A DNA stretch of 64,000 bases. It comes from Phycisphaerales bacterium. Lineage in GTDB: Bacteria; Planctomycetota; Phycisphaerae; Phycisphaerales; UBA1924. The position numbers and the translations under genes were made by a program. A model generated the notes under the pieces. That model was not told where the DNA came from, did no database searches, and was given only the letters and a program-made list of their open reading frames with translations. Shown here piece after piece: positions 56,338 to 62,603 of the stretch (within the stretch, counting starts at the first letter, position 1; each line of letters opens with the position of its first letter). The stretch lies in NCBI GenBank assembly GCA_905339235.1, contig CAJPFG010000005.1:62001-126000 (forward strand). Direction: 5' to 3'.

Positions 56338-57156
56338 TCAGAGACCCTTCAGGTTCTTGATGAATCGGGGGCGCTGCTCCTCATCGAGCAGGAGAATGGC
56401 GCGGCCGAACAGGCGCCGGTTGTCGGCCTCGGTCGCGTTCTCGCCCTTGGCGGCGTGCTCCGAGGTCAGTTCACGCAGGCGGCGCTGTTGCTCCCTGGTG
56501 AGTTTGAGCCCACGGGTGGCGTACCGGTACACGAGATCCCCGGAGTAGAGCACTCGCTGGAAGGAGCGTTCGACTTCCCTTCCGAAGGACTCCAGTTTGG
56601 ATGTGAGCACGATCTCGATACGGCCGGGCCGCTTCCCATCGGCCTTGGGCCGGCGGTGCCGATCCGCGACCAGGGCGGCGCGGTACTCGCCGAGAAGGGT
56701 ATCAAACCGCTCGCGATCCGGCTCGGGCAGCACCCCGGCGATTCGCTGCTGGAGCGGGCCCTTCTCGTGGAGCGGGCGGAACTTCCGCATCGCCTCGATG
56801 GCGAGCATCAACTGGTCGAACTTGTCGCCGGTATTTTCCGCATTGCCGAACATGGTCAGCAGCGGGATGTTGTCCACTACAAAGTCGTCGATGAACTTCG
56901 CACGGGCCGCCAGAATGCCCTGCGCGGCGGCGTGGGCCTGGCGCTGAACCTCGGTTGCGTCCGGCGCATCCAGGCGGAGGAGTTGCAGCGCGGCCTCTTC
57001 GGGCGGGACCTCGGTCGGCTTGACCTCGCCGTTGAACGACACCTCGACCAGCGTCGAAGTTGCCGCGGCGGGAGCGGCCGTCGGGCCCGCGAGTGGAGGG
57101 TCCGGGGCCGTCGGCCAGATCAGGCTCCAGGCCGCGAGAATGCACGGGAGGATCAT
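56338..57156 (-). CDS. Secreted helical protein of unknown function
   Basis: A 272-residue protein with a signal-peptide-like start (MILPCILAAWSLIWPTAPD) and a low-complexity Ala/Pro linker. From about 50 onwards it is mostly helical and charged (QAHAAAQGILAARAKFIDDFV; EAMRKFRPLHEKGPLQQRIAGVL; LTREQQRRLRELTSEHAAK). The LTREQQRRLREL repeat recalls the LTxxQ motifs of Spy/CpxP-type periplasmic chaperones, but only weakly. It is convergent with gmk, 6 nt apart. Confidence 0.6.
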   Translation of the reverse strand: MILPCILAAWSLIWPTAPDPPLAGPTAAPAAATSTLVEVSFNGEVKPTEVPPEEAALQLLRLDAPDATEVQRQAHAAAQGILAARAKFIDDFVVDNIPLLTMFGNAENTGDKFDQLMLAIEAMRKFRPLHEKGPLQQRIAGVLPEPDRERFDTLLGEYRAALVADRHRRPKADGKRPGRIEIVLTSKLESFGREVERSFQRVLYSGDLVYRYATRGLKLTREQQRRLRELTSEHAAKGENATEADNRRLFGRAILLLDEEQRPRFIKNLKGL

Positions 57157-57227
57157 GGGTACTCCGGGATGGCCCTTGGGGCCGTCACCGGATTATTCGG
57201 CGACCGGTGTTCCGGCGTTTCAGGCGT

Positions 57228-57263
57228 TACCATGCGTTTCCATCGGTGCACGGATGCGGGAGG
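57228..57263 (+). promoter_or_regulatory. -10 and Shine-Dalgarno of the first SPINDLY-type gene
   Basis: TACCAT (57228-57233) is the likely -10; GGGAGG (57258-57263) lies 6 nt before an in-frame CTG at 57270. This decides the unusual start codon of the downstream gene. Confidence 0.5.
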
Positions 57264-57269
57264 TGTTCA

Positions 57270-59066
57270 CTGTCCAGATCGGGCGCGGCCATTCAGAACG
57301 CGATTGCTCTGTTCGAGTCGGGCCGGCATGAGCAGGCGAAGCAGACCCTGAGGTTGCTGCTGCAGCGGTCACCGCAGGATCCGCAGGCGAACAAATACCT
57401 CGCGATGTTCCATGGCGGGCTGCATGAAGATGAGCAGGCCCTGGTGTTCATCACCCGGGCGGCGATGGCCGCGCCGAACGACCAGGAGATTCAGTTCATT
57501 CTCGGCAACGTCGCGATGATTCTGAAGAAGTACAAGGAGGGCGTTCGGGCGTATTCCGCGGTCATCCGGCTCAACCCCGATTCCATCAATGCGTACGACG
57601 GGCTGGGCAAGTGCCTGCTGAGTCTGGGAGACTACCCCGCGGCGATGGAGGCGTACGAGAAGGCGATTGCTCGGAATCCCGACAATGAAGACATCTACTA
57701 CCGGATGGGGGTTGCGCTCGCGGTGGTGGGTCGGGTCGAGGAAGCGCTGGCGGTGGCCCGGCGTGGGCTGGAGCGCCTGCCCAATAGCCTGGCGCTGCTC
57801 GAGTTTGTCACGTACAACCAGAACTTTAAGCACGGGGTCGATCCGATCGCCCATCGGCAGGATCACGAGCGGCTGGGGCGGTTGGTCGCCGCGGCAGCGT
57901 CCCGCCCCGTGCGCCCGTTCGGGAATACCCCCGATCCGGAGCGGCCGCTTCGCGTGGCGTTCCTATCGGGAGATTTCGTGCTGCACGCGTGCGCGTTTTT
58001 TCTTGAAGGCCCGTTGCGGGCCCTGGACCGAAGCCGCATCGTGCCATTCCTGTACTCGGCGCGGGAGCAGTTGGACCCGTACAGCGAGCGATTCAAGTCG
58101 CTGGGAGAATGGCGGAACGTTTTCGGGCTCAAGAACGAGCAGATCGACGAACTGGCGCGGGCGGACGGGATCGACGTGCTGGTGGAGTGCGCCGGGTGGA
58201 CTGATCGTGCGATCATGTTCGCGTGCACTCCACGGGTGGCGCCGGTGCAGATTACGTACCTGGGATATCCGAACACCACCGGGCTGCCGTCGATCGACTA
58301 TCGCATCGTGGATTGGAAGACCGATCCCGTGGGGGCGGAATCGCAGTGCACCGAGCAACTCGTGCGGCTGCCGCGCACGTTCCTGTGCTATCGGCCGTAC
58401 GAAAAGGCGATGGGGCCGTTCGACGAGCGGCCGGCGAGCGCGGTCTCGGGCACGGGCGTGACGTTCGGGTCGTTTAACCGCGTGACGAAGATCAGCGACG
58501 CCGCGCTTCGGGCGTGGGGGGAGATCCTCCGCCGGACACCGGGCAGCCGGCTCATGGTGAAGATCCAGATCGCGTCGGGCGAGGTGACGACGAACTTCTC
58601 CCGCAAAATCGAGTCGCTGGGGGTGCCGCGCGAGCGCGTGGTGGGGGCGGAGTTCGTGGAAAAAACAGGCGATCACTTCCCGATGTACCGGAAGATGGAC
58701 ATCGCCCTGGACAGTTTCCCGTATAACGGCACCACTACCACGTGCGAGGCGATGTGGATGGGTGTTCCCGTTGTGGCGCTCGCCGGCCAGACCCACCGGG
58801 CACGCGTGGGCGTGTCGCTCCTGGAGAGCGTGGGCGCTTCGGAACTGGTCGCCGCGAACGAGGAGGAATACGTGAATCTGGCCGTGGGGCTGGCGGGCGA
58901 CCCCGGGCGCCTGGCGGGCTATCACCGGTCGTTGCGCTCCCGCATGTCGGCTTCGCCGCTGATGGACGCTCCCGGTTTCGCCCGTGACTTCGAGGCCGCC
59001 GTCCGCGGGGCGTGGCGGGCATGGTGCGAAAGCCCGCTCGGGCGGGCGGGGGCAAGAACCTCGTAG
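57270..59066 (+). CDS. TPR-SPINDLY (GT41-like) O-GlcNAc transferase-type protein 1, CTG start
   Basis: A 598-residue protein if it starts at CTG 57270, as the GGGAGG site 6 nt upstream and the exact alignment with its two paralogues indicate (GTG 57246 would add eight residues). TPR helices cover about 5-165 (RHEQAKQTLRLLLQRSPQDPQANKYLAMF; INAYDGLGKCLLSLGDYPAAMEAYEKAI). The GT41 part follows: LSGDFVLHACAFFLEGPL, with the His of the catalytic region, ITYLGYPNTTGLPSIDYRIVD, VTFGSFNRVTKISD and DIALDSFPYNGTTTTCEAMWMGVPVVAL. It would transfer a sugar from a nucleotide donor to Ser/Thr of proteins; donor and targets are unknown. First of three tandem paralogues. Confidence 0.85.
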   Translation: MSRSGAAIQNAIALFESGRHEQAKQTLRLLLQRSPQDPQANKYLAMFHGGLHEDEQALVFITRAAMAAPNDQEIQFILGNVAMILKKYKEGVRAYSAVIRLNPDSINAYDGLGKCLLSLGDYPAAMEAYEKAIARNPDNEDIYYRMGVALAVVGRVEEALAVARRGLERLPNSLALLEFVTYNQNFKHGVDPIAHRQDHERLGRLVAAAASRPVRPFGNTPDPERPLRVAFLSGDFVLHACAFFLEGPLRALDRSRIVPFLYSAREQLDPYSERFKSLGEWRNVFGLKNEQIDELARADGIDVLVECAGWTDRAIMFACTPRVAPVQITYLGYPNTTGLPSIDYRIVDWKTDPVGAESQCTEQLVRLPRTFLCYRPYEKAMGPFDERPASAVSGTGVTFGSFNRVTKISDAALRAWGEILRRTPGSRLMVKIQIASGEVTTNFSRKIESLGVPRERVVGAEFVEKTGDHFPMYRKMDIALDSFPYNGTTTTCEAMWMGVPVVALAGQTHRARVGVSLLESVGASELVAANEEEYVNLAVGLAGDPGRLAGYHRSLRSRMSASPLMDAPGFARDFEAAVRGAWRAWCESPLGRAGARTS

Positions 59067-59076
59067 GATCGCCGCT

Positions 59077-60840
59077 GTGAGCGCTTTGAGCAACACCATC
59101 CAGACGGCGGTGCATGAAGCCTCGGCCGGGCGGCCCGACAAGGCGAAGGACCTGCTCCGGCGCCTGCTCCAGCGATCACCCACCGATCCCGCGGTGCTCA
59201 AAGCACTGGCCGAAGTGCACGCGTCTCTGGGAGAGCGTGAGCAGGCGGCGCTGTTCATTCGCCGGGCCGCCGCCGGATCGCCCCGCGATGTCGGTCTGCG
59301 ATTCCAGGCCGGTGAGATGCTCCTGGGGTTGGGGCGGGCGAAGGAGGCCGAGGCGGAGTTCGCGGAGTGCAATCGGCTCGCGCCCGGGGAACTGGCGCCG
59401 TACAACCGACGCGTCCGGGCCCTGCTCGCGCTGGGGCAGGACGACCGGGCCGGTGAAGTTTCCGAGCGATCGATCACTCTCATGCCCGACCGAGTCGAGG
59501 CGTACTGGCAGTGGTTCTCGCTGCTGGCCAAGATCGGGCGGATCGAAGAGGCGGTGGCCGTGTGCCGGCGCGGGCTTGCCCGCCTCCCGGACAATCCGGA
59601 TTTGCTGGAATACCTGTGCTATCTGCTCAACTACGCGGAGAGGGTTGATCCTCACGAGCATCTGGGCCTGCACCGGCGGTTGGGAGAGATCATCACGCGG
59701 ATGGTGCCCGCGGCCGCGCCGTTTACGAACGATCGAATTTCCGATCGACCCCTCCGCGTCGCGTTTCTTTCGGGCGACATCTGCGCCCACGCCTGTGCAT
59801 TCTTTCTCGCGGGTGTGATTGGGAACCTGGACCGCAACCGCGTCACGCCGGTCCTGTATGCGAACAACCCGCCCGACGCCACCACGATCAACTTCGGGGG
59901 CATTGCGCTTCTTCGACATGTGAACGACCTGTCGGACGACCAACTGTCCTCGCTCGTGCGACAGGACGCGATCGACATTCTCGTCGAGTGCAACGGATGG
60001 ACGGGCCGCCATCGGCTTCGGGCCGTGGCGCGCCGGCTGGCGCCGGTGCAGGTGACGTACCTGGGCTATCCCAACACCACCGGCCTCGCCGCGGTGGACG
60101 CACGGATCGTGGACGGCTTCACCGACCCTCCCGGCGCCGAGGCGTGGGCCACGGAGCGGCTCGTTCGCCTACCGGGATGCTTCCTGACGTACACGATTCC
60201 CGCGCAGGCCCCGCCGCCGCGATCTTCGGGGTATGTCGAACGTGGCGAGGGCGGGCCCACGTTTGTCTCGTTCAACCGAGTGACCAAGATGACTCCGGGG
60301 CTGCTGGGCTTGTGGGCGCGAGTGGTCCGCGAGACGCCCGGCTCGAGACTTCTTTTCAAGACCGATGCGTTGCCGGGCGCCGAACGAGAGGCCCGGCGCA
60401 AATGGGAACACGCGGGAGGCGAGCCCGGCGCCCTGGCCTTCACCCCATTCGAGCCCGATCCGGCGCGGCACCTGGCGGCGTACAGCATGGGAGATGTCGC
60501 TCTCGACCCGTTTCCGTACAACGGAACCACCAGCACGCTCGAAGCGCTGCAGATGGGCGTTCCGGTCGTTTCCCTCGTGGGCGATCAGCACCGCTCGCGG
60601 GTTGGCGCCTCCTTGCTCAGCGCCGTCGGGCTTGCAGACCTGATCGCACGCGACGAGAAGGATTACATCAGGCTGGCGAGAGAACTGGCCGGCGATCGTG
60701 CGCGGCTCGCGGCACTGCACGCCACGCTCCGAGACCGGCTCGTGTCGTCGCCGGTATGCGACGGAGCGTCGTACGCCCGCCGATTCGAGGATGCGCTCGC
60801 CGCGCTATGGCGAAACTGGTGCGAGAGGAGTGGTGCGTGA
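59077..60840 (+). CDS. TPR-SPINDLY (GT41-like) protein 2
   Basis: A 587-residue protein starting at GTG 59077, 10 nt after the first paralogue. TPR region about 5-170 (RPDKAKDLLRRLLQRSPTDPAVLKALAEVH), then LSGDICAHACAFFLAGVI, VTYLGYPNTTGLAAVDARIVD, TFVSFNRVTKMTPG and DVALDPFPYNGTTSTLEALQMGVPVVSLVGDQHRSRVGASLL. It is closest to protein 1 (shared HACAFF in place of the common HSVxFF). Differences in the sugar-nucleotide loop (TTSTLEAL rather than TTTTCEAM) suggest a different acceptor or donor. Confidence 0.88.
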   Translation: MSALSNTIQTAVHEASAGRPDKAKDLLRRLLQRSPTDPAVLKALAEVHASLGEREQAALFIRRAAAGSPRDVGLRFQAGEMLLGLGRAKEAEAEFAECNRLAPGELAPYNRRVRALLALGQDDRAGEVSERSITLMPDRVEAYWQWFSLLAKIGRIEEAVAVCRRGLARLPDNPDLLEYLCYLLNYAERVDPHEHLGLHRRLGEIITRMVPAAAPFTNDRISDRPLRVAFLSGDICAHACAFFLAGVIGNLDRNRVTPVLYANNPPDATTINFGGIALLRHVNDLSDDQLSSLVRQDAIDILVECNGWTGRHRLRAVARRLAPVQVTYLGYPNTTGLAAVDARIVDGFTDPPGAEAWATERLVRLPGCFLTYTIPAQAPPPRSSGYVERGEGGPTFVSFNRVTKMTPGLLGLWARVVRETPGSRLLFKTDALPGAEREARRKWEHAGGEPGALAFTPFEPDPARHLAAYSMGDVALDPFPYNGTTSTLEALQMGVPVVSLVGDQHRSRVGASLLSAVGLADLIARDEKDYIRLARELAGDRARLAALHATLRDRLVSSPVCDGASYARRFEDALAALWRNWCERSGA

Positions 60841-62603
60841 GCCAGATCGCGGCCCGAGTGATGCAGGCGGAGGCGCTGCTCGCGCAGGGTAAAGGCGAGG
60901 AGGCCCTCGCGCTGGCGCAGCGTCTGCTTCCCAAGTCGCCGGGCGATCCCGGGCTCAACAGCCTGATGGCGTCGATCCTGCTGCGGCTGGGGCGGTACGA
61001 GCAGGCGGAGTTCTATGCGAGGCGTGCCCAGGCCGCGGAGCCCGCGAGCGCGGGGCTGATGGTGAATCTCGCGATCGCGCTGAAGGCGAACAAGAAGGAA
61101 GGCGAGTCGCTGGCGGTGCTGCGGCGCGCGGTGGAGGTTAGTCCCGCGGATGCCCCGGCGCGGCTGGCGCTCGCCAATGCGCTGCTGGACATCCACGACG
61201 CGCCCGCCGCGGCCGAGCAGTTGCGGTTGGGCCTTGCGCTGAAGGACGACGCGCAGATGAGTGTGTCGTACTCGGGAGCGCTGCTGACGATGGGGTACGT
61301 CGAAGAGTCCGTGGAGTTCACGCGAAGGGCGCTCGCGAAGTTCCCCCACGAGGCGTACCTCGCCGGCGGGCTGCCGATGTCGATGACGTACCTGTACGGG
61401 GCCGACCCCGACGAGGTGGCGGAGGCGCACCGGGCGTACGGGCGGCTGATGGCGAGGCTGCGCCCGGGGATTCGGCATCGGCACACGAACCCGTGCGATC
61501 CCGACCGCACACTGCGAGTCGGGTTGGTGTCGCCGGACTTCCGCCAGCACTCCGTGTCCTTCTTCATCGAGCCGTTCTTCGAGCATCACGATCGCGCGGC
61601 GTTTGAACTCGTGGGATACTCCGCGTCCCGCGACCCCGACCGTGTTACGGAGCGCCTGCGGTCGTATGCGTCGGCGTGGCGCGAGATCCCGAATCTCACG
61701 GACATCCAGACCGCCCAGCGCGTGCACGAGGACCGCATCGATGTTCTCATCGATCTCGCGGGTCACACGCTGGGCAACCGGCTGCCGACGTTCGCGCTCC
61801 GGCCCGCGCCCGTGCAGGTGACCTACTGCGGATATCCGGACACCACGGGCCTCCCGGAGATCGACTGGCGGATCGTGGATTCGCTGACGGACCCGGCGTG
61901 GTCGAAGGCCCAGGCGCGGGCGAGCGAGACGCTGTGGCGGCTTGATCCGTGCTTCCTGTGTTACCGCCCGCTCCGCGAGGCGCCGCGGCCTGTGCGCGAT
62001 CCGGGCTGGCCCGGCCCGGTCTTCGGCAGTTTCAACGCGAGCCGGAAGATCAACCGGGGGGTGATCGCGGCATGGGCGAAGATTCTGCACCGCGTGCCCG
62101 GGTCCAGCATGATCCTCAAGTCCTTCGATTTCGCCGCGAAGGGGGCGATGGAGCGCATCCGCGAAGAGTTCGCGAAGCACGGGGTTGGCGAGGGCCGGCT
62201 CACGTTTATGAGCGCCACCAAGTCGCTCACGGATCACCTGGCCCTGTACTCGCGCATGGATGTCGCGCTCGATGCCTTTCCGTACAACGGAACGACCACC
62301 ACGTGCGAGGCGCTGTGGATGGGCGTGCCCGTTGTGGCGCTGCGCGGGGAATCGCACGCGGGAAGGGTGGGAGTCAGCCTGCTCACCAACGCGGGGGTGA
62401 GCGAACTGATCGCCGCGGACGAGGAACAGTACGTGAGCCTCGCTGCGGCCCTGGCGGAGGATGCCCCGCGGCTGGCGGCGTACCGCGCGGAACTGCGATC
62501 CGCGATCGCGGGCTCCGCGATCTGCGACACGCAGGGGTTTTCGCGACGCTTCGAGGGAGCGCTGCGAGCCATGTGGAAAGCGTGGTGCGCGCGGGGCGGG
62601 TAG
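60837..62603 (+). CDS. TPR-SPINDLY (GT41-like) protein 3
   Basis: A 588-residue protein. The GTG overlaps the stop of protein 2 (GTGA) and has GAGAGGAG (60823-60830) upstream, so the genes are coupled. TPRs cover about 3-175 (GEEALALAQRLLPKSPGDPGLNSLMASILLRLG). The catalytic part is the most canonical of the three: VSPDFRQHSVSFFIEPFFEHH, then VTYCGYPDTTGLPEIDWRIVD, VFGSFNASRKINRGVI and DVALDAFPYNGTTTTCEALWMGVPVVALRGESHAGRVGVSLL. It probably represents the ancestral activity, with 1 and 2 derived from it. Confidence 0.9.
   Translation: MSQIAARVMQAEALLAQGKGEEALALAQRLLPKSPGDPGLNSLMASILLRLGRYEQAEFYARRAQAAEPASAGLMVNLAIALKANKKEGESLAVLRRAVEVSPADAPARLALANALLDIHDAPAAAEQLRLGLALKDDAQMSVSYSGALLTMGYVEESVEFTRRALAKFPHEAYLAGGLPMSMTYLYGADPDEVAEAHRAYGRLMARLRPGIRHRHTNPCDPDRTLRVGLVSPDFRQHSVSFFIEPFFEHHDRAAFELVGYSASRDPDRVTERLRSYASAWREIPNLTDIQTAQRVHEDRIDVLIDLAGHTLGNRLPTFALRPAPVQVTYCGYPDTTGLPEIDWRIVDSLTDPAWSKAQARASETLWRLDPCFLCYRPLREAPRPVRDPGWPGPVFGSFNASRKINRGVIAAWAKILHRVPGSSMILKSFDFAAKGAMERIREEFAKHGVGEGRLTFMSATKSLTDHLALYSRMDVALDAFPYNGTTTTCEALWMGVPVVALRGESHAGRVGVSLLTNAGVSELIAADEEQYVSLAAALAEDAPRLAAYRAELRSAIAGSAICDTQGFSRRFEGALRAMWKAWCARGG

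Follow-up and report, generated by a model that had tools for sequence, protein, structure and literature searches.

In bacteria, CTG makes up about 0.024% of annotated start codons, a figure quoted in PMC11497404 and PMC11983097, and the output obtained from CUG in E. coli is given in PMC11497404 as approximately 0.86% of that from AUG. Few bacterial CTG starts have good support, and they escape gene callers that accept only ATG, GTG and TTG. For the RepFIB rep gene, the CTG start was proven by N-terminal sequencing together with a CTC mutant (PMC11983097). A literature search on CTG starts in Planctomycetes found nothing relevant. OGT1, a gene in the 64,000-nucleotide stretch of Phycisphaerales DNA analyzed here (the window), very probably starts at CTG as judged from sequence comparison and would add to this known, very rare class; the codon is kept in two diverged species, and GTG or ATG takes its place in sister species.

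The OGT1 start region in the window

OGT1 is followed by two paralogues, OGT2 and OGT3 (Table 1). The OGT1 protein matched several TPR families of Pfam as well as PF13844 (E 3.6e-41; 141.5 bits against a cut-off of 25), and combines the catalytic domain with N-terminal TPR repeats as in glycosyltransferase family 41 (GT41, OGT/SPINDLY type; the label 'SPINDLY' is taken from the preliminary description). OGT2 and OGT3 likewise belong to the TPR and GT41 (PF13844) type. Proteins of this GT41 and TPR type are numerous in the seven genomes of the genus sampled here, with 8-19 matches per genome, frequently two to four side by side in tandem.

The preliminary description had proposed CTG 57270 as start codon of OGT1, and its positions for this codon, for the GGGAGG at 57258-57263 and for GTG 57246, ATG 57254 and GTG 57263 proved to be right. 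ATG 57254 and GTG 57263 are indeed out of frame and run into a stop ending at 57331. The spacer between GGGAGG and CTG 57270 consists of six nucleotides (TGTTCA), and the anti-Shine-Dalgarno pairing for this codon, -9.8 kcal/mol, is the sole strong match at proper spacing among the in-frame candidates. This genome has a canonical 16S tail (GGATCACCTCCTTT), and its CACCUCC offers GGAGGTG seven bases for pairing. As described before, a good alternative ATG, GTG or TTG is absent nearby: GTG 57246 has no ribosome-binding site (+1.7 kcal/mol), and GTG 57207 reaches -3.3 kcal/mol. The homologous start position of OGT1 thus has an in-frame CTG with a properly spaced Shine-Dalgarno sequence (SD) and, by sequence argument, is without a usable in-frame ATG, GTG or TTG. 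When read from the CTG, the three paralogues align free of gaps over residues 1-35, and the (Q/P)(R/K)SP motif stands at residues 32-35 in all of them (QRSP, QRSP and PKSP), in agreement with the earlier alignment.

Table 1. Features of the OGT1 locus, with positions in the window
Feature	Position	Strand	Description	Evidence
OGT1	57270..59066	+	598-aa TPR + glycosyltransferase family 41 protein	Pfam, synteny
OGT2	59077..60840	+	paralogue, GTG start, 10 nt past OGT1	
OGT3	60837..62603	+	paralogue, GTG start, 4-nt overlap with OGT2 stop	
Extended SD	57258..57265	+	GGGAGGTG	G005 copy identical; pairing energies
GGGAGG	57258-57263	+	core of extended SD	
Proposed start codon of OGT1	57270..57272	+	CTG	G005 CTG, other GTG/ATG orthologues
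Out-of-frame GTG	57263..57265	+	inside ribosome-binding site	kept in G005 within GGGAGGTG
Upstream in-frame TTG	57060	+	candidate start	
Upstream in-frame GTG	57093	+	candidate start	
Upstream in-frame GTG	57207..57209	+	candidate start, rejected	
Upstream in-frame GTG	57246..57248	+	candidate start, rejected	
Conceptual in-frame peptide upstream of CTG 57270			FRRYHAFPSVHGCGR	

Orthologous starts and the shared CTG

The genus was sampled with the genomes G000 to G006, G000 being that of the window; scans of further genome contigs and of viral contigs yielded no useful relatives. An OGT1 orthologue is present in all seven; the six others show 56-61% identity, and the seven orthologues form one clade (support 100/100). 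The syntenic orthologue of G005 (60% identity) carries AACGGGAGGTGCACG-CTG at the homologous residue, i.e. GGGAGGTG-CACG-CTG, with the same spacing as in G000. GTG occupies exactly the CTG column in G003, in G001 (CAGGAGGCACC-GTG) and in G004 (GAAGGAGGCAGTG-GTG), and in G002 and G006 an ATG is found one codon after it. CTG itself is therefore present in two of the seven species, and the start position, as CTG, GTG or ATG, in 7/7; the tree leaves common descent of the two CTG codons without resolution. The frame of G003, G002 and G006 is closed by a stop 15-29 codons upstream, and zero ATG, GTG or TTG codons are located between this stop and column 1/2, which fixes the N-terminus in these three species without appeal to an SD. 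In homologues from the family's other genera, the first plausible start falls somewhere from column -1 to column 5. The preliminary description had pointed to orthologues with CTG or another start behind the GGGAGG as a check, and the comparison bears it out, with CTG and GGGAGGTG in G005, GTG in three species and ATG in two. A conserved upstream ATG or GTG, named there as contrary evidence, was not found in these genomes, three of which have the close in-frame stops. The orthologues thus support its reading of a CTG start.

The gene order is also partly kept. A divergent gene (window 56338-57156, minus strand), whose 272-aa product has zero Pfam matches, is the neighbour of OGT1 in four further species of the genus: in G005 and G003 within the order dagK, gmk, divergent gene, OGT1, the first two names being our assignment by sequence appearance, and still so in G001 and G004. 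Scans of the divergent region for consensus promoters and terminators found nothing.

Fourfold sites of G000 and G005 agree at 43%, so that unconstrained bases are largely randomised between the two genomes. In a test made after the G005 match had been seen, and hence descriptive, 12 of 15 bases in the block from GGGAGG to CTG were identical, including all of GGGAGGTG and the CTG (binomial p ~0.004). A scan of codon columns near syntenic gene starts on two contigs (202,788 and 231,321 bases), likewise made afterwards and descriptive in its figures, found CTG in both genomes at 16/2366 columns, and a strong SD in both at one of these 16, that of OGT1 (-9.8/-9.8; next best -4.5/-5.7). The prediction of a CTG or other start at the OGT1 column came from the preliminary description and preceded the G005 match. 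A search for widespread CTG starts across 47 syntenic gene pairs gave a negative result. Since only one of the 16 shared CTG columns has a strong SD, the sample depicts a genus without wide use of CTG starts, in which OGT1 is an exception. A second candidate CTG start, in a paralogue of the window's genome (G000:C10, L044), was rejected, as a GTG two codons later in frame and 6 nt after TACACT is better.

Other explanations for the start of OGT1

Ahead of CTG 57270 the frame stays open over 78 codons in G000, and a start farther upstream is thus not precluded by a stop codon; in G005 the frame is open for 42 codons. Three of the in-frame candidates, TTG 57060, GTG 57093 and GTG 57207, were missing from the preliminary description. 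Initiation at GTG 57246 or 57207, extending the protein by 8 or 21 residues, would use the usual codons among which a gene caller limited to ATG, GTG and TTG would pick, and G005 offers an in-frame ATG 24 codons upstream of its CTG. Nevertheless, we consider such a start improbable, as it would leave the strong conserved SD unused. GTG 57246 lacks an SD and has no counterpart in G005, and the SDs of GTG 57207 and of the G005 ATG (-3.8) are weak. Moreover, the upstream codons are not coding-like: the 21 codons before the CTG score -0.12 bits/codon versus 0.41 on average within the gene, a value as low as in 0.17% of in-gene windows, with a GC3 of 0.62 versus 0.84 in OGT1, and the corresponding scores in G005 are -0.09 upstream and 0.46 downstream. 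The upstream peptides of G000 and G005 are unlike, having in common essentially GRC alone, which is encoded by the SD bases. In G003, G002 and G006 such an extension is impossible.

A downstream start appears far less probable still. TTG 57354 and ATG 57405, the next in-frame codons of the usual type, are without a properly spaced SD by inspection, and either would leave the conserved N-terminal helix untranslated, at the cost of the first TPR-like helix; residues 1-35, however, are conserved as protein across species and paralogues while fourfold sites are saturated. The out-of-frame codons might instead initiate, at ATG 57254 or GTG 57263 followed by a frameshift, or belong to a short regulatory ORF that overlaps the beginning of the gene. 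G005 also has the counterpart of GTG 57263, inside GGGAGGTG, but this GTG belongs to the ribosome-binding site and extended anti-SD pairing accounts for its conservation, G005 has no ATG 57254, and a slippery site was not noticed on inspection, so that we assign this explanation a negligible probability. Equally hard to credit is a sequencing or assembly error that removed an ATG or GTG start, or a decaying gene. The window comes from a draft assembly in 45 contigs, and one base change separates GTG from CTG, yet a separate assembly from another species (60% protein identity) contains the same CTG and SD, and the 598-codon frame is intact with the GC3 given above.

Proposed initiation at CTG and comparison with known systems

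OGT1 in all likelihood starts at CTG 57270, where the 30S subunit would be held by the unusually strong extended SD GGAGGTG, the initiator fMet-tRNA would pair imperfectly with CUG, and the 598-residue GT41 enzyme would be produced at a low rate. The start position is well supported by the comparisons above. The protein made from it would begin with Met, and the weak codon may be kept to hold down OGT1, perhaps also the closely packed OGT2-OGT3; given the 10-nt gap and the 4-nt overlap, weak initiation at OGT1 could affect all three genes. As CUG is weak in E. coli and the same has been argued for RepFIB rep, low expression enabled by a strong SD would be the most economical function. In G000 and G005 alike, the start region shows less folding than shuffled sequences do (z 1.7 and 1.25). 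This genome encodes IF3 and an initiator tRNA with the three customary G-C pairs, which gives no hint of generally relaxed initiation; an unusual anti-SD, an unusual initiator tRNA and a missing IF3 were each looked for in this genome and none was found.

With a longer 16S tail, pairing energies are -16.8 and -14.0 in the CTG species, -10.3 and -12.2 in the GTG species with an SD, and weakest (-5.0, -3.7 and -3.7) in the SD-less GTG/ATG species, a ranking that was noticed after the fact and comprises seven species representing fewer independent lineages. It fits the published link of non-AUG starts to stronger SDs (PMC5622118). That CUG is a selected expression brake on the operon, sensed via IF3 or fMet-tRNA supply like sigR, with the SD rising as the codon weakened, is a tentative and rather unlikely extension; it would envisage a series within one genus from SD-less ATG/GTG through SD with GTG to the strongest SD with CTG.

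SD-less homologues (L005, L007, L003, L093, L094, L096 and L099) have a TACNNT box ~6-10 nt before the start codon, which suggests leaderless transcripts in this family. The box occurs in 5/40 starts of syntenic genes (20 pairs) compared to 2.5% at control positions. Resembling it, TACCAT and TTCCAT are found in the window (57229-57243), 35 and 26 nt ahead of the CTG, and TACCAT 22 nt ahead of the CTG of G005. If the two in the window were -10 elements, the transcript would not include the in-frame GTG 57207.

The CTG pair and the GTG/ATG sister species form a natural series in which compensation of a weak start codon by a strong SD could be tested. RepFIB rep of F-like plasmids (PMC11983097) resembles OGT1 as read here: a good ribosome-binding site precedes a CTG start that annotation overlooked, and this CTG is thought to set low expression; rep is, however, an enterobacterial plasmid replication gene, whereas OGT1 is a chromosomal-type glycosyltransferase gene whose CTG start is proposed from sequence comparison. 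In Streptomyces sigR (PMC5472188), a usual GTG that was misannotated as start lies within the extended AGGAGGTG ribosome-binding site, much as GTG 57263 lies within the extended SD of OGT1, and in both genes a non-standard codon shortly after the SD, kept across species, is the true or proposed start. It differs in its GTC start, in the demonstrated repression by IF3 and in encoding an oxidative-stress sigma factor. With the annotated bacterial CTG starts OGT1 shares the codon and the expected low-efficiency initiation with fMet, but it is backed, beyond annotation, by conservation in two species whose neutral sites are saturated.
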